64,000 bases of DNA from Anaeropeptidivorans aminofermentans (lineage in GTDB: Bacteria; Bacillota; Clostridia; Lachnospirales; UBA5962): NCBI RefSeq assembly GCF_940670685.1, contig NZ_OW711693.1, positions 1,178,001-1,242,000 on the forward strand, written 5' to 3'. Both the position numbers and the translations under genes were made by a program. Below the pieces are notes generated by a model, which saw only the letters and a list, made by a program, of their open reading frames with translations, was not told where the DNA came from and ran no database searches. Below are positions 326 to 63,276 of this stretch, piece by piece. Numbering within the stretch: position 1 is the stretch's first letter; each line of letters begins with the position of its first letter.

Positions 326-1678
326 ATGTTTTCAGCTCAGCAGGATAATAAAGACAGTATATACGGCACGAGGATTCTGCCTAACGATATAGAGGCGGAA
401 CAGGCTGTGCTCGGTTCTATGTTTTTCGGAAGCGACGCCGTAAGCACGGCTTATGAGTCTTTAAAGCCGGAAGATTTTTACCGTGGAGACAACAGGGCCA
501 TATTTGAAGCCATGATTGAGCTTTTCATGAACAATATTCCCGTAGACCTTGTTACTCTGAAGGATAAGCTTGACGAAAAAGGTCTTACGGAGCAGGTTGG
601 GGGAAAGCAATATCTTGTTGTGCTTGCAGGGGCTGTTTCCACCTCTGCCAATTTAAGCCATTATATAAAAATCATTGAAAAGAAATCCACCCTTAGAAAG
701 CTGATACAGGCTTCCACTGATATTTCAAAGGATAGCTACGACGGCACTAAGGAACTTGAGGAAATAATTGAAAATGCTGAAAAAAGCATATTCAATATTG
801 TTCAGAACAGAAACAGCGGCGATTTTTCTTCTATCAATGAAATACTTATAGATTCCGTCAGTAAAATTGAAGAGGTATATATTAATAAAGGCAATGTCTC
901 AGGCATTGCCACAGGCTTTATTGACTTTGATAATAAAACGGCGGGGCTTCAGCCTTCCGACCTGGTACTGATAGCTGCAAGGCCCTCTATGGGAAAAACA
1001 GCCTTTGCCCTTAATATCGCCCAAAATGTTTCTGTGAGAAAGGGCTTAAGTACGGCTATTTTCAGCTTGGAAATGAGTAAAGCCCAGCTTGTTTCAAGAC
1101 TTTTATGCGCGGAAGCGATGATAGACAGCCATAAATTAAGAACAGGAGACCTTGCGCCGGAGGATTGGGAGAAGATTGCAGAAGCTATAGGACCTCTGGG
1201 AAGCGCTCCCATTTACATAGACGATACCCCGGGCATCAGCATATCGGAGCTTAGGGCGAAATGCCGAAGGCTCAAGATGGAAAAGGGCCTTGATTTAATC
1301 ATGATAGACTATCTTCAGTTAATGAGCGGCAGCAGAAAAAACGAATCAAGACAGCAGGAAATTTCAGAAATATCCCGAAGCCTTAAAGCCGTTGCAAGGG
1401 AAATGAATGCTCCTGTTATTGCTCTGAGCCAGCTAAGCCGTGCCTGTGAAACAAGAACCGACCACAGACCCATGCTTTCAGACTTGAGAGAATCGGGAGC
1501 CATAGAGCAGGATGCCGACCTTGTGGCCTTTATCTATAGAGATGAATATTACCACCCGGATACGGAAAAAAAGGGCCAGGCAGAAGTTATTATTTCAAAG
1601 CAGAGAAACGGTCCCACAGGAACTGTGGATTTACTCTATCTTGATAATTATACTAAATTTGTAAATATTCAAAGATAA
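326..1678 (+). CDS. dnaB: Replicative DNA helicase DnaB
   Basis: The protein has 450 residues, the usual length for the hexameric helicase that unwinds DNA at the replication fork and recruits primase. The N-terminal domain starts with the typical ILPNDIEAEQAVLGSM stretch (residues 17-32). The RecA-like ATPase domain has Walker A ARPSMGKT at 218-225, a Walker B region ending LIMIDYLQLM near 325-334, and a C-terminal loop with SDLRESGAIEQDAD. It follows rplI after 4 bp and is probably co-transcribed with it. Only a weak AAGGA site precedes the ATG, which suggests translational coupling to rplI. No intein or frameshift is visible. Confidence 0.97.
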   Translation: MFSAQQDNKDSIYGTRILPNDIEAEQAVLGSMFFGSDAVSTAYESLKPEDFYRGDNRAIFEAMIELFMNNIPVDLVTLKDKLDEKGLTEQVGGKQYLVVLAGAVSTSANLSHYIKIIEKKSTLRKLIQASTDISKDSYDGTKELEEIIENAEKSIFNIVQNRNSGDFSSINEILIDSVSKIEEVYINKGNVSGIATGFIDFDNKTAGLQPSDLVLIAARPSMGKTAFALNIAQNVSVRKGLSTAIFSLEMSKAQLVSRLLCAEAMIDSHKLRTGDLAPEDWEKIAEAIGPLGSAPIYIDDTPGISISELRAKCRRLKMEKGLDLIMIDYLQLMSGSRKNESRQQEISEISRSLKAVAREMNAPVIALSQLSRACETRTDHRPMLSDLRESGAIEQDADLVAFIYRDEYYHPDTEKKGQAEVIISKQRNGPTGTVDLLYLDNYTKFVNIQR

Positions 1679-1699
1679 ATTTAAAAGCAATATTAAATA

Positions 1700-1751
1700 T
1701 AAGCCAAGCGCCGGTAGAGGAATCCGAAAGGTATTATCGGGTCTTGGCTTA
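1700..1751 (+). other. Structured hairpin downstream of dnaB
   Basis: A 9-bp perfect stem (TAAGCCAAG with CTTGGCTTA) closes over a second helix (CCGGTA with TATCGG) and an inner hairpin capped by a GAAA tetraloop. No T-run follows, so it is not a textbook intrinsic terminator. It may be a 3'-end processing or terminator structure for dnaB, or a small structured RNA. The fold is read by eye only. Confidence 0.5.
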
Positions 1752-1877
1752 ATTGATTTATGGCAAAGATTTTGTTTTCAAGATATAGTATAGTAAAATA
1801 ATTTAATTACAGGAACAAAACCTTATCTTCACGCAGATTCAACAATGCGTTTTAGAAAAATACAATAATTCATATTT

Positions 1878-1952
1878 TGTGAAACTGCCTTTATTTGATT
1901 TTATATATTGAAAGCTTCCTTATCTATTACGGTATAAAGGCAATTTCATCAT
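1878..1952. repeat. Imperfect inverted repeat in the dnaB-SLH gap
   Basis: The left arm GTGAAACTGCCTTTAT matches a right arm ATAAAGGCAATTTCAT, and an outer TTTGA/TCAAA pair extends the symmetry. It is one of several palindromes filling the 680-bp gap between dnaB and the SLH gene. No coding potential is apparent in it. Confidence 0.45.
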
Positions 1953-1982
1953 ATTTTCAAATAAAATCCGTGCCTTTGGGTC

Positions 1983-2028
1983 TATAGTGAATCAGTTTTT
2001 GTTGCTTCTCTATAAGAAATTTACTGTA
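1983..2028. repeat. Short remnant of palindromic repeat family A
   Basis: The segment keeps both ends of the family (TATAGT... and ...AAATTTACTGTA) and the GTTTTTGTTGCTTCTCTATAAG piece, but the centre is deleted, leaving about 46 bp. Confidence 0.5.
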
Positions 2029-2084
2029 AATTAATTTATGTAGCCCTATAACCTTAGATAAAATAAAAAATAAGCCGATATGTT

Positions 2085-2190
2085 TATAGTAAGTCAAATT
2101 CAAAACAGTTCAAAGGTACTTTAAGTTGTTTTGAATTTGGCGTCCTACTTAATACAGTCAATTAATCTTTTAATCTTAATTGGCTGTATC
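2085..2190. repeat. Palindromic repeat family C, copy 1
   Basis: Two consecutive hairpins are visible: AAATTCAAAACAG with a TTGTTTTGAATTT arm, and ACAGTCAATTAA with TTAATTGGCTGT. A second copy with the same order of hairpins lies at 14450-14550. It abuts a family A copy that starts at 2194. Confidence 0.6.
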
Positions 2191-2193
2191 AGA

Positions 2194-2329
2194 TATAGTA
2201 AATTTAACAGTAAAGAGTAACAAAACCATAGATGCATGAAGACGCAAAAATGTACAGTTACAAAGGAAGTTTATGTTTTTGAATCTATGTAAATAAGTTT
2301 TTGCTGCTTTTTATGAGTAATTTACTATA
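2194..2329. repeat. Palindromic repeat family A, copy 1
   Basis: This 136-bp element has TATAGTAAATTT at the left end and its near-complement TAATTTACTATA at the right end. Just inside are an AGAGTAACAAAACC block and the matching AAGTTTTTGCTGCTTTTTAT. It is oriented opposite to the copies at 31068 and 42134. It ends 31 bp before the SLH gene start, so it may carry or disturb that gene's promoter. Confidence 0.65.
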
Positions 2330-2360
2330 TTAAGTTTTATGTATATTACGGGAGGTAGAA

Positions 2361-4337
2361 ATGAAAAAGTTATTTTTGTGGTTTTCTTGCCTGTTGCTTT
2401 CAGTAAGCGTTTTTTCCTATAAAGCTGAGGCTAGTGAAATATCAGACATTAATGGCCACTGGGCCGAGGCTGTAATGAGAGACTGGAGGTCTAAAGACTA
2501 TATTTCCGGTTATGCAGACGGAAGTGTTCGCCCGGATAATCTTGTTACAAGGGCAGAATTTTTTGCCATGGTAAATAAGCCCTTCGGCTTTATCTATTCG
2601 TCTCCTATTAATTTTTCTGACGTAAGATACGGTTCATGGTACTACAATATCATAAGCACAGCCGTAGCTGCAGGATACGTTTCAGGCTACAGTGACGGTA
2701 CAATACAGCCCGACCGCTATATAACAAGAGAAGAAGCCGCCGTCATGCTTTGCAAGGCCGTAGGCCTTGTACCCTATGAACCGGGGGCTGATATATATAA
2801 GGATTCTGCCATTAGCCAGTGGAGCAGGCCCTATATAGGGGCAATATCAAACGCAGGTATAATGCAGGGATATTCCGATGGGACATTTCGCCCCTTAGGA
2901 ACCATGACAAGGGCTGAGGCTGTTACATCGATAAATAATGGGCTGATGAGAAGAAACCAGAACATAGGCTCTTTCGTTCAGCCTGTGGAAAATCAGCAGA
3001 TAAGCAGCGGCCTTACGGTAATTACCCCCAACACAGGAACAAATACTCAAAGCAATTCTTCTTCAAGCAATAGCCAAGGCTGGCAGGATATTGAGGATTT
3101 TGAAGTAGTAATAAGCGCTTCATCCTACGGCTCTTCCAGAGATGACAAATACATAAACGGCAACGTAAGAATAGACGCCAATTCAACTACCGTAAGAAAC
3201 ACAGAAATCACAGGAGACTTACTTATTTCTTCATCGTCAAAGGGAAGAGTTACCCTTGATAAGGTATCCGTAAGCGGAACCATTTATGTAGAAGGGAAAT
3301 CAAGGCTTGTTTTAAGCGACAGCGACGTTTCGGACATTTTAGTCCGGTCAAGTAATTCCGACGTAATATTATCGGCGGAAGGAGAGACCACCGCAGGAAC
3401 CGTATATTTATATTCAGGTGCCGAAATCTCCGAGGGAAAGCTTAAAAAATCTTATTACGGCTTTGAAGATATTGTGATAGAAGACTCTGTTAAAAATAAT
3501 TCCAGATTTGAATTTTCAGGCGATTTTAATCAAATCGATATCTATGCTTCCAGAATAAAATTCATATTTACCTCCGGAACCATATCCAGCCTTAATATTG
3601 AAGACACTGCCGAAAGAGGAACTTATGACATTCATTCAGGAACTACCGTGGATACGGTGGATATATATGGCCAAAATTCTTCCTTTTCAGGCCGAGGCCG
3701 TATTAAATATGCCAATGTATATGCTAAATATGCTTATTTTTCCGTAAAGCCGGATACGGTTTATAATGATTACGATTATGATACAGGCTCAGGAAGCGTA
3801 AGTTACGGCGACTACAACCTTACGGTATATGTGGAAGATGAAGACGGTGACGACCTTGAAGATGCAAGAGTTACCATAAAAAGAGAAGGCTATTCTTCAG
3901 AAGATTGGGAAAGAACCAATTCCGCCGGCAGAGCTTACTTTGGCGATTTATATAATGATTATTACGATATAACCGTGGAAAAAAGCGGATATACTACAGA
4001 AACAAAGAGAGTTAATGTAAGGTATGACGATACGGAGATAAGGATAACGCTTCGGGAATCAAATTATAAAAAAACAATATTTACCGTTTTTGTTACAGAA
4101 GTAGATACAGATGGAGAGTATGTTTTTTTACCTGGGGCAAAGGTAGTTCTTAAAGTAGGAACATCTACTGTGGAAAAAATTACAAGTGCTGTAGGCATGG
4201 TCGTATTTACAGACTTGGATATTGGCAGATATGATATTACCATATCTAAGGACGGATATGAAAGCGAGACGGGGCAGATATTAGTTTCTTCAAACGAGGC
4301 AGATAATTTGTTAACTTTAGCTTTGATTAAAAAATAA
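2361..4337 (+). CDS. S-layer homology (SLH) domain surface protein
   Basis: A 658-residue secreted protein. A Sec signal peptide (about residues 1-25, cut after AEA) is followed by three SLH domains at about 28-72, 85-133 and 145-194, each with the GYSDGT-type turn and TRAE motif. SLH triplets anchor proteins to pyruvylated secondary cell-wall polymers. After a Ser/Asn-rich linker (about 205-245) comes a beta-rich stretch of repeated short strands, then two Gly/Asp-rich beta-sandwich repeats at about 490-565 and 575-655. These resemble carboxypeptidase-regulatory or PEGA-like domains (ARVTIKREGY, TVEKSGY). There is no catalytic motif, so a structural role is likely. GGGAGGT lies 7 bp before the ATG. 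It is monocistronic, ending at a strong bidirectional terminator. Confidence 0.88.
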   Translation: MKKLFLWFSCLLLSVSVFSYKAEASEISDINGHWAEAVMRDWRSKDYISGYADGSVRPDNLVTRAEFFAMVNKPFGFIYSSPINFSDVRYGSWYYNIISTAVAAGYVSGYSDGTIQPDRYITREEAAVMLCKAVGLVPYEPGADIYKDSAISQWSRPYIGAISNAGIMQGYSDGTFRPLGTMTRAEAVTSINNGLMRRNQNIGSFVQPVENQQISSGLTVITPNTGTNTQSNSSSSNSQGWQDIEDFEVVISASSYGSSRDDKYINGNVRIDANSTTVRNTEITGDLLISSSSKGRVTLDKVSVSGTIYVEGKSRLVLSDSDVSDILVRSSNSDVILSAEGETTAGTVYLYSGAEISEGKLKKSYYGFEDIVIEDSVKNNSRFEFSGDFNQIDIYASRIKFIFTSGTISSLNIEDTAERGTYDIHSGTTVDTVDIYGQNSSFSGRGRIKYANVYAKYAYFSVKPDTVYNDYDYDTGSGSVSYGDYNLTVYVEDEDGDDLEDARVTIKREGYSSEDWERTNSAGRAYFGDLYNDYYDITVEKSGYTTETKRVNVRYDDTEIRITLRESNYKKTIFTVFVTEVDTDGEYVFLPGAKVVLKVGTSTVEKITSAVGMVVFTDLDIGRYDITISKDGYESETGQILVSSNEADNLLTLALIKK

Positions 4338-5894: not shown

Positions 5895-6205
5895 CATAGA
5901 ATTAGTTGTGCCCTATGGAAAAAAGCATAAAAAAAGCTCTCGTCCTTGGGCCATTTACCCAAGGGACGAAAGCAAAGCTTCCGCGGTACCACCCTTATTA
6001 CGGTATTATTACCGTCACTTAATTAAACAGGTCATATAAACCCTTGCCCAATAACGGAGGCATCCGTATATGCCTACTAAAGATATTCAGCATATCGGCT
6101 CAAGAGTGTATTTATATATAACATACGGGTTTTGCTCGCACCAACCGCAAAATCTCTGAATCCGGCCTAGTTATATTTTTCTCTCTGTCTCAGCCTTTTA
6201 ATATT
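5895..6205 (-). promoter_or_regulatory. T-box riboswitch with tyrosine (UAC) specifier
   Basis: Read on the minus strand, all T-box landmarks are present. Stem I has a CAGAGA bulge and a GGTTGGTGCGAGC distal loop. A UAC codon at 6110-6108 sits directly before ACTCTTGAGC, the usual specifier position. The conserved AGTAGG linker and TCCGTTA follow. The T-box AAGGGTGGTACCGCG (complement at 5983-5997) comes before the terminator. Known T-boxes read uncharged tRNA by codon-anticodon pairing and permit read-through when the tRNA is uncharged. The specifier assignment rests on position in the leader and has not been folded computationally. Confidence 0.9.
5929..5973 (-). terminator. T-box terminator hairpin
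   Basis: A long stem (GCTTTCGTCCCTTGGG with CCCAAGGACGAGAGC) is followed by seven T on the minus strand. It overlaps the segment that would form the antiterminator with the T-box sequence, as in canonical T-box leaders. Confidence 0.88.
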
Positions 6206-9383: not shown

Positions 9384-10157
9384 TTGTATAGGGAAGACTA
9401 TCTTACGCTGGCGGAAGCGGCTAAGAAAAAAGTAGTATTTTTAAAAAATAATCCTGCAGGTTATTTTGTATCATCTATGCTTGCAGGTATTTATGTTGGT
9501 TTTGCGATGCTTTTCATTTATATCATTGGCGGAAACCTCGATGGGGCGGGGATATCAAAGGTAATAATGGGAGCATCATTTCCTGTGGCTTTAAGCCTTG
9601 TTCTTATGGCAGGCTCAGAGCTTTTTACAGGAAACAACATGGCTATGACAGCAGGTGTATTGGAAAAAAAGGTAAAAACTAAAGACGCTCTTTACTTATG
9701 GTTTGTATGCTATTTAGGAAACTTTGCCGGTTCTATCCTTCTTGCCGTAATTTTCTGCTCAGGCGGCTACGCTACGGGAAAAGTAGGCGTATTCTTAGCG
9801 GAAGGTGCTTTAAGCAAAATGAGCCATGGGTCTCTTGAGCTTTTTTGCAGAGGAATCCTTTGTAACATCCTTGTTTGCGCCGCCGTATGGTGTTTTTATA
9901 AGCTGAAAACTGAAAGCGGCAAGCTGATTATGATTTTCTGGTGTATTTTCGCATTTATAACAAGTGGATATGAGCACAGCGTTGCAAACATGACACTTTT
10001 TACGGCGGCTCTTATAAGCCCCAACGGTGTTGCGGTAACGCCAGCCCTTGCTTTCCATAATTTACTTTTTGTTACTTTGGGAAATATTGTAGGCGGGGTT
10101 GTATTCTTAGGAGTCGCCTATTACATAATATCGAAAGAGCCTGGTAAAAAGGCTTAA
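9384..10157 (+). CDS. Formate/nitrite transporter family channel
   Basis: A 257-residue inner-membrane protein of the FNT family (FocA/NirC/HSC), pentameric channels for small monovalent anions such as formate, nitrite or hydrosulfide. Visible hallmarks are the PAGYFVSSMLAGIYVGF first helix, GSELFTGNNMAMT after helix 2, and GYEHSVANM with the conserved channel His. The GNIVGGVVF motif closes the last helix. It starts with TTG at 9384 behind GGGGGG and is probably translated together with mntP. Substrate cannot be fixed by eye; in a fermenting anaerobe formate export is the simplest guess. Confidence 0.88.
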   Translation: MYREDYLTLAEAAKKKVVFLKNNPAGYFVSSMLAGIYVGFAMLFIYIIGGNLDGAGISKVIMGASFPVALSLVLMAGSELFTGNNMAMTAGVLEKKVKTKDALYLWFVCYLGNFAGSILLAVIFCSGGYATGKVGVFLAEGALSKMSHGSLELFCRGILCNILVCAAVWCFYKLKTESGKLIMIFWCIFAFITSGYEHSVANMTLFTAALISPNGVAVTPALAFHNLLFVTLGNIVGGVVFLGVAYYIISKEPGKKA

Positions 10158-10167
10158 AAACAGGTTT

Positions 10168-10205
10168 CGCAAAAGCAGCCAAGGGCTGCTTTTGCGAGTT
10201 TTTAT
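10168..10205 (+). terminator. Terminator of the mntP-FNT operon
   Basis: A 13-bp perfect stem, CGCAAAAGCAGCC with GGCTGCTTTTGCG, is followed by GAGTTTTT. Confidence 0.88.
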
Positions 10206-10314
10206 CTGCCGCCAATATTTAACCCACAAAGGAGCAAAGCACTCTTTGCAGCTTAAAGTCTGGGCTTTTAGAGCTATTATACCATGAGCATAATTTTGTT
10301 CATATTATACCTTT

Positions 10315-10339
10315 AGCATCTCATTGAGATGCTTTTTTT
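10315..10339 (+). terminator. Orphan intrinsic terminator
   Basis: AGCATCTC and GAGATGCT form an 8-bp stem with a 3-nt loop and then seven T. No gene is visible between this and the preceding operon terminator, so it ends either read-through or an unseen short transcript from 10206-10314. Confidence 0.8.
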
Positions 10340-10371
10340 AACTGGCAATGACTGCCTTTGATGAATTCAAA

Positions 10372-10400
10372 TTGACAGTTTTATATGAAAATGCTATACT
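10372..10400 (+). promoter_or_regulatory. Promoter of the MutS2-like gene leader
   Basis: A perfect TTGACA (10372-10377), a 17-bp spacer and TATACT (10395-10400). This strong sigma-A promoter lies about 560 bp before the MutS2-like start, so the transcript has a very long 5' leader. Confidence 0.88.
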
Positions 10401-10427
10401 TTAAAAAAACTTAAAGGGTGTGTATTG

Positions 10428-10463
10428 ATGTCGGTTCTGTCTGTAATGGTGGAAATCAACTAA
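10428..10463 (+). CDS. Putative 11-residue leader peptide
   Basis: ATG at 10428 opens the frame MSVLSVMVEIN followed by TAA. It starts about 21 bp after the expected transcription start and has an AAGGGTG site 8 bp upstream. It is followed by competing hairpins and intrinsic terminators before the MutS2-like gene. This is the layout of translation-sensing attenuators (erm, vmlR-like ABC-F, hflXr leaders). The peptide itself is not a known sequence to me. Confidence 0.55.
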   Translation: MSVLSVMVEIN

Positions 10464-10487
10464 ATAGACGCTGATTAATTTAATATA

Positions 10488-10580
10488 AGTAAAACTTTTC
10501 AAATTTTACTCTGTTAAGCTTAATTGGCGCAGTTGAAAAAGTGTAAGGGCATAGAATGCTTTTTTTGTATTACACTTTTA
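10488..10580 (+). promoter_or_regulatory. Competing hairpins and terminator T1 in the MutS2-like leader
   Basis: Three segments can pair in exclusive ways. ACTTTTCAA (near 10493) can pair with TTGAAAAAGT (10533-10542). The latter, extended to GTGTAA, can instead pair with TTACACTTTT (10570-10579). Inside the second helix a small GCAT/ATGC hairpin followed by seven T (10549-10566) could terminate transcription. The arrangement suits an attenuator. Confidence 0.55.
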
Positions 10581-10624
10581 CAGAACATACCTAACAGACT
10601 GCTTCAATACCTTAAATAATCGGT

Positions 10625-10656
10625 GCGTGGTAAGGTGTTATTGCCGCGTATTTTTT
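10625..10656 (+). terminator. Leader terminator T2
   Basis: GCGTGGTAA and TTGCCGCGT pair over nine positions (some G-T) around a 7-nt loop and are followed by ATTTTTT. It lies within the 5' leader of the MutS2-like gene. Confidence 0.65.
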
Positions 10657-10690
10657 ATATAATAAATTATTCTGCAAACAATTAAGATAC

Positions 10691-10727
10691 CCTTAAAAAT
10701 ACTTAAGTTTTTTAAGTTATTTTTAGG
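10691..10727 (+). other. AT-rich hairpin in the MutS2-like leader
   Basis: CCTTAAAAATACTTAA pairs with TTAAGTTATTTTTAGG around a short loop, with one bulged base. It may be an alternative pairing partner in the leader; no T-run follows. Confidence 0.4.
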
Positions 10728-10769
10728 CATGTTATTATACTATTCCATGTTTTTCCTGCAGATTTAATT

Positions 10770-10828
10770 TGCCCACAGGAGCATTCTGCACTTTTATAGG
10801 TGTAGGTATGTTCTTGTGGGCATTTTTT
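10770..10828 (+). terminator. Leader terminator T3, 130 bp before the MutS2-like start
   Basis: TGCCCACA and TGTGGGCA close a long hairpin with further internal pairing and are followed directly by TTTTTTG. There is no stop codon of a full-length gene in the 600 bp before it, so it can only control read-through into the MutS2-like gene. Confidence 0.85.
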
Positions 10829-10957
10829 GTATTTATGCTTGAATGATACTGAAACGATGGCATTGTTAATTTACTGTACTTTATTTTAAATTTTACCCAG
10901 ATTAGTACTGGTAGAGAAGCAAAAGTAAATTGAACCTATTTTGTAAGGAGATTAAAT

Positions 10958-12886
10958 ATGAATAGTTATAAAACACTTGAATTTGATATAATACTTGAAA
11001 AATTAGCTGAAAAGGCTTTATCAGAAGGCGCAAAGGAAAAATGCCTTAAACTTCGGCCGTCTTTGGCGGAAGAAGAGGCTCTCCGTTTTCTTGATGAAAC
11101 TACCCAGACAAGAAGCATTATAGAGCAGATGGGAAAACCGCCCCTTCCTGTTATGCCGGATCTTGAAAAAATAATAGACTATATTAATATTGAGGCGATG
11201 CTAATGCCGGAGCAGATTGAAAAGGTACTATCCTTTCTTGTATCCTGCAGAAGAATGAAGGAATATTTAAAGTCTGCAGAGGCTACCGAATGCAGTATCG
11301 CCTGGTATGGCGGCAATATAGACGAGCTGCGTTTTCTTGAAGAAGAAATTGAAAAATCCATTTCCAATGGGGCCGTTTCCAATAAGGCATCTTCAAAGCT
11401 TGACAGCATAAGGCGGCAGATAGATATTACCTCAGACCAGATGAAAGAAAAGCTTAACGAGATTTTAAGAAAAAACAAATCATGGTTTTCCGAAAGCTTT
11501 GTGGTTATAAGAAACGGGCATTATACCCTTCCTGTAAAAAGAGAATATAAAAACTATGTTTCCGGTACAGTAATCGAAATATCCAATAAAGGCGGTACGT
11601 GTTTTATTGAACCTTCTTCTATGGAAAAATACCAGTCGAAGCTTTCACTGCTGCAAATAGAAGAAGACAGTGAGGTAAGGCGGATATTGTATTATATTAC
11701 CGGCATCATAAGCGATAATATAAAAGCCATTCAGCTTAATATGGAGACAATAGAGACATTGGATTTTCTTTTCGCTAAGGGTAAGCTTAGTATCTCCATG
11801 AATGCATCTTCCGTGAATATAAATACAGAAAGAAAGATATCCATAATAAACGGAAGACACCCTTTAATTAATGAAGAAGAGGCGGTCCCTTTAAATTTTC
11901 AAATTGAAGGGGAGACAAAAGGCGTGGTTATTACCGGACCCAATACAGGAGGGAAGACCGTCGCATTAAAAACAGTAGGGCTTCTTTCCCTGATGGCCCA
12001 AAGCGGACTCCATGTTCCGGCAGACAGTCAAAGCAGTTTTGCCATGAATAATATCATTATGAGCGATATCGGGGATGGCCAAAGCATTACGGAAAATTTA
12101 TCTACATTTTCGTCTCATATGAAAAAGGTTATTTCAATTTTAAAAGAAATTAACGAGGAATCCTTAGTGCTTATTGACGAGCTGGGTTCAGGAACAGACC
12201 CTGCTGAGGGCATGGGCATTGCCATAGCTGTTTTAGATGCTTTATGCGGGAAAAAATGCAATTTTATTGTGACGACCCATTACCCGGAGGTTAAGGAATA
12301 TGCGGAAAAGACGAAAGGTATTGTAAATGCCAGAATGGCTTTCGATAAAAACAGCCTTATGCCTCTTTACAGACTTGAAATAGGCTTGGCAGGGGAAAGC
12401 TGTGCTTTATATATCGCTGAAAGGCTGGGTATGCCTTCCGGGATACTGAAGCGAGCCTATGAAGAAGCTTATGGAAAAGAAAACAGCAAAGAACATGATT
12501 TTAAAGACAAAGATTGCCATGAGCCTGAAAATGCAGATATACCCAAGATTATCAGAAAAAAGGAAGAAAGGTTTGCTGAACATCTATCATTACCGTCCTT
12601 TACCATAGGTGACAGCGTATTTGTTTACCCTGAAAAGGAAATAGGCATCGTCTATGCTTTATCTGATCATAAGGGAAATGTAGGCGTTCAGGTAAAGGGC
12701 CAGAAAAAGCTTATAAACCATAAACGCATTAAGCTTAATATACCTGCCTCTGAGCTTTATCCCGAAGGATATGATTTTTCAATTATTTTTGATACGGTTG
12801 AAAATAGAAAATCAAGGCATATTTTAGAAAAGCGCCATGAAGAAGGCAGAATTATAATCCTTGAAGAAGGAGACAAAGAAATATAA
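10958..12886 (+). CDS. MutS2-like ATPase lacking the Smr domain
   Basis: A 642-residue protein of the MutS2 branch. The N-terminal clamp/lever region covers about residues 1-290. The ABC-type ATPase has Walker A GPNTGGKT at 327-334, Walker B LVLIDELGSGTDP at 403-415 and THYPE near 441. A KOW-like beta segment follows at about 555-600 (GDSVFVYPEKEIGIVYAL). Canonical MutS2 is about 780-790 residues and ends in an Smr nuclease domain; here the protein stops about 40 residues after KOW, with no Smr motif. MutS2 of Bacillus acts on collided ribosomes. With the attenuator-type leader upstream, a ribosome-rescue or antibiotic-response role is plausible but inferred. AAGGAG lies 9 bp before the ATG. 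Confidence 0.85.
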   Translation: MNSYKTLEFDIILEKLAEKALSEGAKEKCLKLRPSLAEEEALRFLDETTQTRSIIEQMGKPPLPVMPDLEKIIDYINIEAMLMPEQIEKVLSFLVSCRRMKEYLKSAEATECSIAWYGGNIDELRFLEEEIEKSISNGAVSNKASSKLDSIRRQIDITSDQMKEKLNEILRKNKSWFSESFVVIRNGHYTLPVKREYKNYVSGTVIEISNKGGTCFIEPSSMEKYQSKLSLLQIEEDSEVRRILYYITGIISDNIKAIQLNMETIETLDFLFAKGKLSISMNASSVNINTERKISIINGRHPLINEEEAVPLNFQIEGETKGVVITGPNTGGKTVALKTVGLLSLMAQSGLHVPADSQSSFAMNNIIMSDIGDGQSITENLSTFSSHMKKVISILKEINEESLVLIDELGSGTDPAEGMGIAIAVLDALCGKKCNFIVTTHYPEVKEYAEKTKGIVNARMAFDKNSLMPLYRLEIGLAGESCALYIAERLGMPSGILKRAYEEAYGKENSKEHDFKDKDCHEPENADIPKIIRKKEERFAEHLSLPSFTIGDSVFVYPEKEIGIVYALSDHKGNVGVQVKGQKKLINHKRIKLNIPASELYPEGYDFSIIFDTVENRKSRHILEKRHEEGRIIILEEGDKEI

Positions 12887-12892
12887 CAGCAA

Positions 12893-12928
12893 AAGTCCCC
12901 CGACAGCGTATAGCATATCGAGGGACTT
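12893..12928 (+). terminator. Weak hairpin after the MutS2-like gene
   Basis: AAGTCCC and GGGACTT pair over 7 bp around a 22-nt loop. A proper T-run is missing, so termination efficiency is uncertain. Confidence 0.45.
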
Positions 12929-12947
12929 CATTATGGTTAATTTTAAT

Positions 12948-13096
12948 AAGTTAAGGGTCTTTAATTAAATAAGGCATAAGGCCAATAAGAAATTGAAGAA
13001 CATTATTGGATTTTGTCATACTTAAAAATATTTATTTATAAGAAATAATTTTGTTATTTTAAGGAATATGCCTTATATAAAGACCCGGACTTATTA
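12948..13096. repeat. Long imperfect palindrome between MutS2-like and SASP genes
   Basis: The left arm GGGTCTTTA...AAATAAGGCATA mirrors the right arm TATGCCTTATATAAAGACCC about 90 bp later, with outer TAAG/CTTA ends. The structure resembles a miniature inverted-repeat element, but its ends differ from families A, B and C. Confidence 0.5.
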
Positions 13097-13125
13097 TATT
13101 TATATATTAATCTAATAGGCCCAGA

Positions 13126-13344
13126 CTATTTTCCTGCCATCTGTCTTTTCTGAGCATCAATCATCTTCTTAACCATATATCCGCCAACGTAACCGTTTTG
13201 AGCTGAAGTTAAATCTCCATTGTATCCCTGCTTAAGAGGAACACCGATTTCGTTTGCAACCTCATACTTGAACTGATCAAGAGCGGCTCTAGCTTCAGGT
13301 ACAGAATTTTTGCTGTTTGTACTTGGTATATTCGGTATATTCAT
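13126..13344 (-). CDS. Alpha/beta-type small acid-soluble spore protein
   Basis: A 72-residue SASP, a DNA-coating spore protein that protects DNA in the forespore and is digested at germination. The YEVANEIGV block holds the GPR protease site region, and the GYNGDLTSAQNGYVGGYMVKKMI block is the conserved DNA-binding half. The ATG at 13344 is chosen because GGAGG lies 8 bp upstream; a GTG nine bases earlier sits inside the ribosome site. A sigma-G promoter would be expected but I could not place one firmly. This gene shows that the organism, or a close ancestor, sporulates. Confidence 0.93.
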   Translation of the reverse strand: MNIPNIPSTNSKNSVPEARAALDQFKYEVANEIGVPLKQGYNGDLTSAQNGYVGGYMVKKMIDAQKRQMAGK

Positions 13345-14877: not shown

Positions 14878-16056
14878 TTAAGAAGCCTTCAATAATTTGC
14901 GGTAAGTTAAGTCAACGCCCAGAGCGCCAAGAGGTGCGGTAATTAAAATTGATAAAACAGCTACAGTCAAAACGATTTGGCCGCAGGGTAAACCCATTGC
15001 CAGTGGCAAACCGCCAATGGCCGCCTGTACAGTAGCTTTCGGCATATATGCAATCATGCAAAAAAGCCGCTCTTTAAGTGATAGCCCTGTCTTTAGCAAA
15101 CAAAAGAAAACACCTGTCATACGAAGTGCCAGAACAGAAAAAATAAGTATCATAGATGGCAATCCGGCTGAAAGTGCGTAGCTTACATCAACAGTAGCAC
15201 CAACAAGGACAAATAAGAGAATTTCAGCACCCACCCAAAGCTTTGTGAACTTATTGGATAAGCGTTCAGAAAGTACGGGGTATCTTCTGAAAATCATAGC
15301 GCCCATAGCCATTACTGCAAGCAATCCGGATACAGGAAAAAGATTTTCGGCATATTTCTCAAAGGCAACAAGCAGAAAAGATATGCTTAAAAGGATAATT
15401 ACTTTTGCAGAATCTCGAAAATGCTTTTTTTTGAAGAATATTACTAACAAATAGCCTATTAAGCTTCCAATCAAAGCACCCGTAATAATAGACACGGGTA
15501 TTTTGGCAAAGCTTATGGCAGAAATATTGCCGCCGGTGGCTAATGATGTAAAGGAAGTAAAAAGCACAATTACAAAAACATCATCAACGGAAGCTCCAGC
15601 CATAATAAGTTGAGGAATACTATTATTAATACCGTATCCTTCTTCCATAAGCTTTAGCATTCTTGGAACTATTACAGCGGGGGAGACAGCCGCAATGACA
15701 GAACCCATTATTGCAGCTTCAAGGTAAGAAATTCCCAATAAAGGCGGTGCCAACAACACTGTTCCTGCAATTTCAAAGCATGCTGGAACGAAGCACATGA
15801 GCATTGCTGGGCGGCCTACTTTCTTCAAATCCTCAATGTTTAATGAAAGCCCTGCTCTCGTCAATATGATTATAAGGGCAAGCTGTCGTAAATCAGCAGA
15901 TATAGAAAGTATTGAATTATCTAAAAGGTTTAGCAAATAAGGTCCAAGGATTATTCCAGTAAGCAGTAGTCCTATAAGATTTGGAAGCTTTAGTTTTTGA
16001 AAGACTGAACCAAGAAGCAAACCTAAAAGAAAGATAAAAGCAAGACTAGTAAGCAT
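14878..16056 (-). CDS. Cation/proton antiporter family protein, fluoride-controlled
   Basis: A 392-residue integral membrane protein with about 11-13 helices, of the CPA (NhaP/Kef-like) superfamily. Family-like features are LLLTGIILGPYLL in the first repeat, LRQLALIIILTRAGLSL, and SVIAAVSPAVIVPRML and AGASVDDVFVIVLF with the membrane Asp pair. The start is placed at ATG 16056 because GGGGG lies 9 bp upstream. A fluoride riboswitch with its own terminator controls it. Fluoride riboswitches are known to govern fluoride exporters (CrcB/Fluc, CLC-F) and some antiporter-type genes, so a role in fluoride resistance is a reasonable inference. It is monocistronic. Confidence 0.88.
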   Translation of the reverse strand: MLTSLAFIFLLGLLLGSVFQKLKLPNLIGLLLTGIILGPYLLNLLDNSILSISADLRQLALIIILTRAGLSLNIEDLKKVGRPAMLMCFVPACFEIAGTVLLAPPLLGISYLEAAIMGSVIAAVSPAVIVPRMLKLMEEGYGINNSIPQLIMAGASVDDVFVIVLFTSFTSLATGGNISAISFAKIPVSIITGALIGSLIGYLLVIFFKKKHFRDSAKVIILLSISFLLVAFEKYAENLFPVSGLLAVMAMGAMIFRRYPVLSERLSNKFTKLWVGAEILLFVLVGATVDVSYALSAGLPSMILIFSVLALRMTGVFFCLLKTGLSLKERLFCMIAYMPKATVQAAIGGLPLAMGLPCGQIVLTVAVLSILITAPLGALGVDLTYRKLLKAS

Positions 16057-16095
16057 AAATATTCCCCCTAAAGTTTGTTTTGCCGCAAAAAACAA

Positions 16096-57366: not shown

Positions 57367-58891
<1,525 letters not shown>

Positions 58892-59005
58892 AAAAGTAGG
58901 GTAGCACCCAAAAGAATTTGGGTCATTAAACGAAGTTTAATGATTTTGTGAAGCAAAATGCTGAGGAGATAGTTTTGTGAAACAAAACTGTCTGAAGGGT
59001 TTGAG

Positions 59006-59030
59006 TACTTATTATTTAGTTTTGAGTGTT
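59006..59030 (+). other. 3' arm of the 16S processing stem
   Basis: CTTATTATTTAGTTTTGAGTGTTC is the partner of 57190-57216. The spacer before it (58888-59005) has several short hairpins such as CATTAAACGAAGTTTAATG. Confidence 0.7.
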
Positions 59031-59138
59031 CATGTAAATGAATGCTGAAAATAAGTTTTGTTTTTATAGCTACTAGCTTATAGAAACAAAAATAAAATAT
59101 ATCAAGGTTATCTTGTGAAAGCAAGGATAACAAAGCTT

Positions 59139-59255
59139 TCCGGTGGTGATGCGTCTATGGGAAACATCCGTACCCATACCGAACACGACGATTAAGCCAC
59201 AGACGGCCGATGGTACTTGGCGGGAGACTGCCCGGGAGAGTAGGTGGCTGCCGGA
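59139..59255 (+). rRNA. rrf: 5S ribosomal RNA, inside the 16S-23S spacer
   Basis: A 117-nt 5S gene. TCCGGTGG at the 5' end pairs with the CTGCCGGA end. The CCGTACCCATACCGAACACGACGATTAAG loop and GGTACTTGGCGGGAGACTGCCCGGGAGAGTAGG arms are standard. It sits between 16S and the tRNA genes rather than after 23S. No second 5S is found after 23S. Confidence 0.97.
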
Positions 59256-59441
59256 TTCCAATTACATAAAAAAATCAAGGAAGTTTCATCTTTGTTTCAC
59301 AAAGATGAACATTTAGTAAAACATACCGGAAACATGTATGATTTTGCTTCACTAAAAGGGTGAAAGCCCTTGGTTTTTGTTATGTAAAGAGTAATTTAAC
59401 AGCAAGAATATAAATATCAGACGGATATTTATAACTAGCCG

Positions 59442-59515
<74 letters not shown>

Positions 59516-59570
59516 CTTTTCTATTTAAACAATAGAATACTGATTTAAAAGATAATCAGCCGCCTAATAC

Positions 59571-59646
59571 GGGGGTGTAGCTCAGATGGGAGAGCACCTG
59601 CCTTGCAAGCAGGGGGTCACGAGTTCGAATCTCGTCATCTCCACCA
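59571..59646 (+). tRNA. tRNA-Ala (TGC)
   Basis: A full cloverleaf with GGGGGTG acceptor, CTTGCAA anticodon loop (TGC) and GTTCGAATC T-arm. CCA is encoded at the 3' end. Confidence 0.97.
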
Positions 59647-59744
59647 AGGTTGATTATGAATTAACCTGAAAACCCAATTAAATCGTACTAGAAACGTGTG
59701 CGATTAAATCCAACAACTTTTACTAAAGTAAAAGTTATCCGGTA

Positions 59745-59771
59745 CCTTGAAAACTGAATAGAGAGAAGAAG
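59745..59771 (+). other. 5' arm of the 23S processing stem
   Basis: CCTTGAAAACTGAATAGAGAGAAGAAG can pair with CTTCTTTCTCTATTTAGTTTTTAGGG at 63121-63146. Confidence 0.7.
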
Positions 59772-60110
59772 AAAAACAATTTCATCGGAGTGCTTAAGAG
59801 AAGCAGGAGGATGGAGGCTTTGCAAGAAGCGTTCATTCAAATGAAGATTAAAGCATGACGAAAAAAGAAAATGTTAGGTCTGAAATGGTCTCTTGATAAG
59901 TAAATTATTACTTATCGAGAAAAATAAATGTATTACTGAAGAGAATAAATGAAGAGTTTTAAAACCTTAGGGTTTTAATTTAATCCGCAGAATGGGCTTT
60001 GCCCATTGGAGGAAAACAGCGTGTTTCAAGGCTTTTGTAAAAAGCCGCAGGAATAGCTGTTTCTGCCTTCAGTAAATTTCGTAAAAATCGCAAGATTTTT
60101 ACGACACAAA

Positions 60111-63019
<2,909 letters not shown>

Positions 63020-63120
63020 ATAAAAAGGGTATATGAAAATATATCAAAGATGCAAGGCTAAAGAAACAGCTTATCGAAAGATAGCTTACGCTATGGTTAA
63101 GCATCACAATCGTTTCAGAT

Positions 63121-63147
63121 CCTTCTTTCTCTATTTAGTTTTTAGGG
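63121..63147 (+). other. 3' arm of the 23S processing stem
   Basis: CTTCTTTCTCTATTTAGTTTTTAGGG is complementary to 59745-59771. No 5S lies between the 23S end and this arm. Confidence 0.7.
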
Positions 63148-63175
63148 TATTGATTTAATTGAATAAGTTTTTTAT

Positions 63176-63257
63176 GGGGGAATTCCCGAGTGGCCAAAGG
63201 GGGCAGACTGTAAATCTGTTAGCAACGCTTTCGAAGGTTCGAATCCTTCTTCCCCCA
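63176..63257 (+). tRNA. tRNA-Tyr (GTA)
   Basis: An 82-nt class II tRNA with long variable arm. GGGGGAA and TTCCCCC form the acceptor arm, CTGTAAA the anticodon loop (GTA). Its anticodon pairs with the UAC specifier of the T-box at 5895-6205. Confidence 0.97.
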
Positions 63258-63276
63258 TGTCTTTATTTTTTGGAAT

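Follow-up and report, generated by a model that had tools for sequence, protein, structure and literature searches.

In Bacillus subtilis, deletion of mutS2 leads to hypersensitivity to chloramphenicol, tetracycline, and erythromycin, a Walker B mutant of MutS2 is erythromycin sensitive, KOW and SMR mutants are only modestly so, and the barrel of the protein binds uS10 on the ribosome (PMC10897456). The mutS2 gene of Staphylococcus aureus is listed among linezolid-sensitive mutants (PMC5165250). HflXr of Listeria monocytogenes, a paralogue of a ribosome splitter, lies behind rli80, a transcription attenuator with a leader open reading frame (ORF) (PMC6310831), while the leader peptide MsrDL (MYLIFM) stalls at its own stop codon with erythromycin, after which the polymerase passes an intrinsic terminator (PMC10314930). 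Here we analysed a stretch of 64,000 nucleotides from Anaeropeptidivorans aminofermentans (the window; positions 1178001-1242000 of a 3.76-Mb single-contig genome) carrying a gene for a MutS2-like ATPase that lacks the Smr domain and is preceded by a short leader ORF, alternative hairpins, and terminators. We consider it probable that this locus is an inducible ribosome-rescue gene, encoding a drug-inducible MutS2 paralogue that would split or rescue antibiotic-stalled ribosomes.

An initial annotation of the window had placed an 11-codon ORF with its own ribosome-binding site at 10428 and the start of the MutS2-like gene at 10958; both are present, each with a ribosome-binding site (Table 1). 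In relatives, leaders could be picked by eye in 10 of the first 17 loci, the window included (MSVLSVTVMIN, MLIVSGMVRFN, MSASIVEVK, MSIVVSK, and others), and these 10 were used to train a position-specific score with a threshold of 4 and a search range of 5-14 codons. The test set consisted of 65 loci from GTDB genomes not repeating the training genomes, and the 237 controls were the upstream regions of neighbouring open frames of ≥150 residues with a ribosome-binding site, many of them partly coding. A score of ≥4 was reached in 39/65 test loci compared to 0/237 control upstreams and 16/650 shuffles, and none of 13 full-length mutS2 upstreams scored above 0. Among 31 further, non-duplicate genomes, 18 scored ≥4 and 23 scored ≥2. 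The conserved leader comprises a ribosome-binding site and a short peptide of the M[S/L]VxSVxV or M[S/L]xVVLN type, and several leaders are preceded by promoter sites that resemble, by eye, that of the window. A degenerate DNA pattern of the window-type leader was found in 2/295 genomes, both times at the Smr-less mutS2 gene. At least one T-tailed hairpin or terminator lies upstream of 39/64 family genes versus 62/237 controls. Both the short ORF and the terminators looked for in relatives are far commoner there than in front of control genes. In two loci of one genus (L014 and L018), the leader is seemingly replaced by a longer ORF that begins MKSILFVELNK or MKSLYFVGLNK (by eye). In 19/53 loci, the stop codon of the leader is spanned by a small hairpin, CAAC-TAAATA-GTTG.

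The leader RNA offers two alternative helices, in which a downstream segment (B) can pair either with leader codons (A) or with part of the last terminator (C). For the A:B helix, leaders carrying the core TCTGTAA (codons 5-7 in the window), which come from one large group, had TTACAGA downstream in 16/16 cases, compared to 6/49 non-carriers, and for the core TTCTTAAC the complement was present in 3/4 carriers and 0/61 others. A second group of leaders ends in ..VLN-stop, encoded by GTTCTTAACTAA, with TTAGTTAAGAAC located 85-170 bases downstream; here, B follows the Leu codon of the leader, reading AAG for CTT, GAG for CTC, and CAG for CTG (L187 and L189 being the CTC/CTG cases). Among 27 hand-selected short leaders, A:B pairing reached p ≤ 0.05 in 14 against base shuffles that preserve base composition only.

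Segment B (ACAGA..TGCT) can also pair with segment C, GGAGCATTCTG. Patterns for both B and C were found in 18/53 loci, and in all 18 of these C forms part of the 5' arm of a hairpin with a T tail. At the position of the B:C helix that varies, the 18 loci show G-C ten times, A-T six times, G-T twice, and A-C never: TGCT in B occurs with AGCA (10) or AGTA (2) in C, TACT in B occurs with AGTA (6), and no locus has the combination that would clash. Desulfosporosinus and a metagenome bin related to it have the A-T form, which also arises separately at a locus of Anaerocolumna (L076). Wherever the elements could be located, comparison of the sequences supports mutually exclusive pairing of antiterminator and terminator, since both helices show compensatory changes, and the predicted attenuator itself is well supported.

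The competing hairpins reported by the initial annotation agree with a leader RNA (10406-10960) that folds more stably than shuffles (z = -4.7 with 100 dinucleotide shuffles); their alternative pairing, which it had not worked out, is the part now backed by compensatory changes. Three T-run terminators had also been described. Those at 10625 and 10770 are supported by our terminator scan, whereas the one at 10549 was not called, is nested in a larger hairpin, and is weak, making the count slightly overstated. The scan, run over 10000-13200 on both strands, found 7 terminators where 2.4 were expected, with 2 of them within the leader. Similarly, the "perfect" promoter at 10372 is present but near-perfect, and the promoter scan did not exceed shuffles overall (10 found, 11.1 expected). 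An Rfam scan gave no attenuator family at the gathering level; a lax search of the leader matched only a microRNA model, at 25 bits against a cut-off of 80, and was ignored.

The AT-rich composition of the region, the promoter scan taken alone, and the presence of some broken copies (such as L017) are what would be expected if the short ORF and T-runs had arisen by chance in the leader of a degenerate mutS2. The leader and terminator controls, the further genomes, the compensatory pairing, and reading frames that are intact and keep a conserved tail across the phylum all speak against such an origin, which we find barely credible and set aside as already refuted by the comparative controls.

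Table 1. Positions in the window of the promoter, leader elements, gene, and protein regions of the Smr-less mutS2-like locus
Feature	Position	Strand	Details
Sigma-70-type promoter, TTGACA-17-TATACT, extended TG	10372..10400	+	11/12 consensus matches
Leader ORF ribosome-binding site, AAAGGG	10413..10418	+	9 nt upstream of leader start; read in sequence, scored
Leader ORF, MSVLSVMVEIN + stop, 11 codons	10428..10463	+	Read in sequence; conserved in family
Segment A, TCTGTAATGG (leader codons 5-8)	10440..10449	+	Presumed to lie under the stalled ribosome; can pair with B
Small hairpin GCATAGAATGC + T7, weak terminator candidate	10549..10566	+	Nested in larger hairpin 10536-10579; not called by scan
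Segment B, CCTAACAGACTGCTTC	10590..10605	+	Alternative partners A or C; comparative pairing analysis
Second terminator-like hairpin with T-run	10622..10652	+	Called by terminator scan
Last terminator, stem TGCCCACAGGA / TCTTGTGGGCA, then T6	10770..10828	+	Full hairpin 10770-10822; scan called the 10785-10806 part
Segment C, GGAGCATTCTG	10778..10788	+	Antiterminator partner of B, inside last terminator
MutS2-like gene ribosome-binding site, AAGGAG	10945..10950	+	7 nt upstream of start; read in sequence
Smr-less MutS2-like ATPase gene	10958..12886	+	642 aa; ORF list, profile and structure comparison
KOW/SH3-like barrel, residues 548-596	12599..12745	+	AlphaFold 5-strand barrel, pLDDT ~91
Family-specific tail ASELYPEGYDFSIIFDTVENRKSRHILEKRHEEG, residues 597-630	12746..12847	+	Sits where Smr would be

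The complete ATPase described for the encoded protein was recovered: the MutS ATPase domain (PF00488, E = 2.4e-39) is the only Pfam domain found at E ≤ 0.001, and both the Walker A (GPNTGGKT) and Walker B (LVLIDELGSGTDP) motifs are present in the alignment. The NCBIfam mutS2 model (TIGR01069) scores 566 bits against a cut-off of 400, spanning only positions 3-515 of its 790. In the AlphaFold model (mean pLDDT of 79.9 for the whole protein), the core matches 7qv3_w, the disome-bound B. subtilis MutS2, with a Z score of 35.2 over 495 residues and a root mean square deviation (rmsd) of 2.9, and thus has the MutS2 core fold without mismatch-recognition domains. All 16 family members scanned also match the NCBIfam model of KamC, a MutS2-type ATPase of ~508 residues, which would be consistent with a chaperone-like reactivase of a metabolic enzyme. 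This function is very improbable given that the window protein reaches only 209.5 against the KamC cut-off of 300, in contrast to its MutS2 score, and that no aminomutase is present among the five neighbours scanned.

The KOW-like segment of the initial annotation corresponds to a predicted five-stranded barrel resembling that of MutS2. Its best match in the PDB is residues 639-688 of 8r55_z, MutS2 on the B. subtilis disome (Foldseek E = 3.6e-3; Z = 8.0 over 50 residues with an rmsd of 1.4), with Tudor and Spt5 barrels within 1 Z unit. At the level of sequence, the KOW/SH3 domain (PF20297) was not found by Pfam and was marginal by hhalign. After the barrel, the relatives share the tail consensus ELYPxDYDFSIIFxSxENRK, in which L, Y, P, Y, F, R, and K are invariant in 14 diverse rows.

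As had been proposed, there is no Smr domain: Pfam found none at E ≤ 0.1 in 16/16 family members scanned. Nor was a frame-shifted Smr extension found, as the frame ends at 12886, the ORF list holds no Smr-like frame beyond it, and relatives share the C-terminal motif. Since Smr was tested for and is absent, the window protein belongs to a MutS2-related family and is not MutS2 in the strict sense. The second, full-length mutS2 that the initial annotation had suggested looking for is present in the same genome; counted from the ATG, its product has 790 residues, and it contains both Smr (E = 4e-27) and the MutS2-associated MSSS/SH3 domain. A fourth MutS-type ATPase frame of this genome (L004, G000:C1:3042134-3042796) has 598 residues and, by eye, a membrane-like N-terminal stretch.

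Early discussion of MutS2 was of a protein acting in antirecombination (PMC3200294), and the NCBI model carries the name endonuclease MutS2. A DNA-side paralogue acting in antirecombination, and standing under a translation-coupled attenuator incidentally, is nonetheless improbable, because the nuclease domain is absent, the predicted barrel resembles the one with which B. subtilis MutS2 binds uS10, and a ribosome-stall sensor in front of the gene points to a ribosome function.

The Smr-less paralogue was present in 19/57 genomes searched, its own included, and all 19 carriers also keep full-length MutS2. A C-terminal profile detected the family in 64/295 sampled genomes of the order and in 31/398 of the phylum, a patchy occurrence that makes it an accessory gene. 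In a scan of GTDB contigs, at least 587 relatives were confirmed among at least 595 pattern matches, and the best 80 of these at least 587 were kept; the relatives include Desulfosporosinus, Ruminiclostridium, and Lachnospiraceae, and further carriers are Paenibacillus, Cytobacillus, and contigs from Enterococcus- and Listeria-host records. The Smr-less MutS2 proteins of 600-660 residues that were sought do exist, with lengths of ~630-670 residues and one of 726, set apart from full-length MutS2. In a tree of 60 rows, the 13 full-length MutS2 proteins form one group (100/100) with all 45 Smr-less rows outside it. No single branch separates off the Smr-less rows (such a split occurs in 1% of bootstrap trees), because two MutS1-type rows with long branches join the tree among them, and only the split of the full-length group was used. 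Since that group stands apart and every carrier retains a full-length copy, the Smr-less protein is, on the comparison of sequences, not a recent truncation. Some copies look broken or cut, in keeping with an accessory gene: two in-frame TGA codons interrupt L017, which is one of the 19 carriers, and L051, L074, and L078 gave no continuous frame.

Searches of plasmid and phage records left recent transfer unproven. Query coverage reached ≥80% in 6/17 plasmid and 3/29 phage records, with identity below 60% in all, and the "phage" matches look like host contigs in unverified records. Two of these (L144 and L145, accessions OR846605 and OR846885, with Enterococcus or Listeria hosts) are apparently host chromosome and carry Smr-less mutS2 with the GTG-start leaders MSVVGI and MSVAGI.

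These observations can be combined into a mechanism. Without drug, the ribosome would exit the leader quickly, A would pair with B, the terminator would be free to form, and transcription would stop. A macrolide-like drug in the tunnel, or one at the peptidyl-transferase center, would instead stall the ribosome at approximately codons 6-9 or, for leaders of 6-7 residues, at the early stop codon. The stalled ribosome would cover A, leaving B free to pair with C, so that the terminator would be blocked and the gene transcribed. The ATPase of the protein would then split ribosomes that are drug-stalled or collided, or rescue them in another way. The Smr-less paralogue would thus stand in the same relation to MutS2 as HflXr does to HflX, as a paralogue of resistance type that accompanies the housekeeping copy. 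Parking of the ribosome on A, and by a drug, is inferred, as are the inducer and the activity of the protein. The interpretation offered by the initial annotation, a ribosome-rescue or antibiotic-protection factor induced by stalling on the leader peptide, is supported to the extent that sequence allows.

Amino-acid attenuators work by the same type of A:B and B:C alternative pairing, and the leaders described here are rich in Val and Ser. The attenuator could therefore be real and respond to a nonantibiotic signal, such as too little charged tRNA for Val, Ser, or Leu, or a general slowing of translation, with the protein acting as a stress-induced ribosome-rescue factor. We regard this as rather unlikely, although less so than the other alternatives, since the detected leaders contain no single-codon runs and keep residue positions (S5 V6 x V8; VVLN-stop), nothing evident connects the gene with the synthesis of amino acids, and peptides this short suit stalling by a drug after 6-9 residues, as in MsrDL and ErmCL.

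Several further results count against a drug-inducible rescue gene. Leaders were picked by eye in only 10 of the first 17 loci, and 26/65 test loci and 13/31 of the further genomes remained under the threshold, in part through variation in start and length (MLTVLVMEIAAN and MSVASVARFYN both score 2.9) and in part because no leader is visible; some loci, such as L082, L103, and L110, have no convincing leader by eye. Exact complements were not in excess for the cores TCTGTAG (0/4), GGTATC (1/6), AGTATCT (0/2), and TTTGTAA (0/2). Automated A:B duplex tests over long windows were weak at p ≤ 0.05 (13/65 in one and 8/60 in the other, the latter with a median p of 0.35), and the helix of the window itself is not significant on its own (p = 0.71 and 0.75); the core-by-core and clade-wise tests were adopted because the automated ones either tolerate long bulges or take their controls from related sequences. 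The +X+ (RLR-type) motif of the HflXr and ErmDL leaders is absent from the window leader and from 49/50 scored leaders, with L050 carrying RVR. Linkage of the Smr-less family to known acquired resistance genes was not established. Finally, deletion of SMR in B. subtilis strongly reduces the binding of MutS2 to collided ribosomes (PMC10897456), and an Smr-less protein would therefore need another way of finding its target.

In Cytobacillus spongiae (L146), a YbiT-type ABC-F ATPase gene (971-2572, minus strand) is located upstream of the Smr-less mutS2 at a distance of 1.4 kb that includes two further genes. It scores 692 bits with the YbiT model, below the cut-off of 762, and 381.7 with the ribosomal-protection-like model, whose cut-off is 380. 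A scan of 87 sources for ABC-F frames found none and was not used because its control failed, the known L146 gene being missed as well.

Taking all of this together, we lean toward the view that Smr-less MutS2 paralogues ("MutS2r") constitute a widespread and unrecognised class of inducible antibiotic resistance, which would free drug-stalled ribosomes, be switched on by drug-sensing stalling leaders, and be hidden under the name endonuclease MutS2. If true, MutS2-type ribosome splitting would have been turned into an inducible drug defence in Bacillota of gut, soil, and anaerobic habitats, parallel to HflX/HflXr. The two annotated records that were read call the gene products endonuclease MutS2 and DNA mismatch repair protein MutS, even though such proteins lack the nuclease domain, so that resistance surveys would overlook them. 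Natural Smr-free MutS2 proteins also provide material for separating the roles of Smr, KOW, and the ATPase on the collided ribosome, and the leaders form a large natural set of candidate stalling sequences in which peptide and RNA would have coevolved.

The MutS2-like gene seemingly stands alone, the following ORF being on the opposite strand and spore-protein-like by eye. Elsewhere in the window, a fluoride riboswitch (Rfam RF01734; 16119-16192, minus strand) lies directly upstream of a Na+/H+-exchanger-like transporter gene (14878-16095, minus strand), and a T-box leader (Rfam RF00230, 132.9 bits) occupies 5959-6200 on the minus strand. The rRNA operon at 57367-63258 contains 16S, 5S, tRNA-Ile, tRNA-Ala, 23S, and tRNA-Tyr, with the 5S gene placed between 16S and 23S.

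The literature searched, which covers few subscription journals, yielded no description of a MutS2 family lacking Smr, nor of a mutS2 gene preceded by an attenuator. An increase of MutS2 in Enterococcus faecium, apparently under chloramphenicol (PMC12441150), could not be tied to the Smr-less family.

Among known leader peptides, ErmAL1 carries an IAVVE motif. MSVLSVMVE of the window aligns without gaps with ErmCL, MGIFSIFVI (PMC5915450), S5 and V8 being identical and I6 being matched by V6. As in the MsrD/MsrDL system, a short leader peptide is combined with an intrinsic terminator, and a stall at the stop codon fits the leaders of 6-7 residues, MSVVGI and MLGVVLN. Unlike in the MsrD and ErmC systems, the regulated gene is a different one and the window family uses trp-type A:B and B:C alternative pairing. 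The protein resembles B. subtilis MutS2 in its core and ATPase, in a barrel that is KOW-like by predicted fold, and in a score above the NCBIfam cut-off, and differs from it in lacking Smr, in having its own C-terminal tail and an attenuator in front of its gene, and in being a second copy beside full-length MutS2. The likeness to HflXr (PMC6310831) lies in a paralogue of a splitting factor that sits beside the housekeeping copy and behind a leader-ORF transcription attenuator. HflXr, for which resistance has been shown, is a GTPase of another family, and its leader contains RLR, which the window leader lacks. The Smr-less family most likely works like HflXr.

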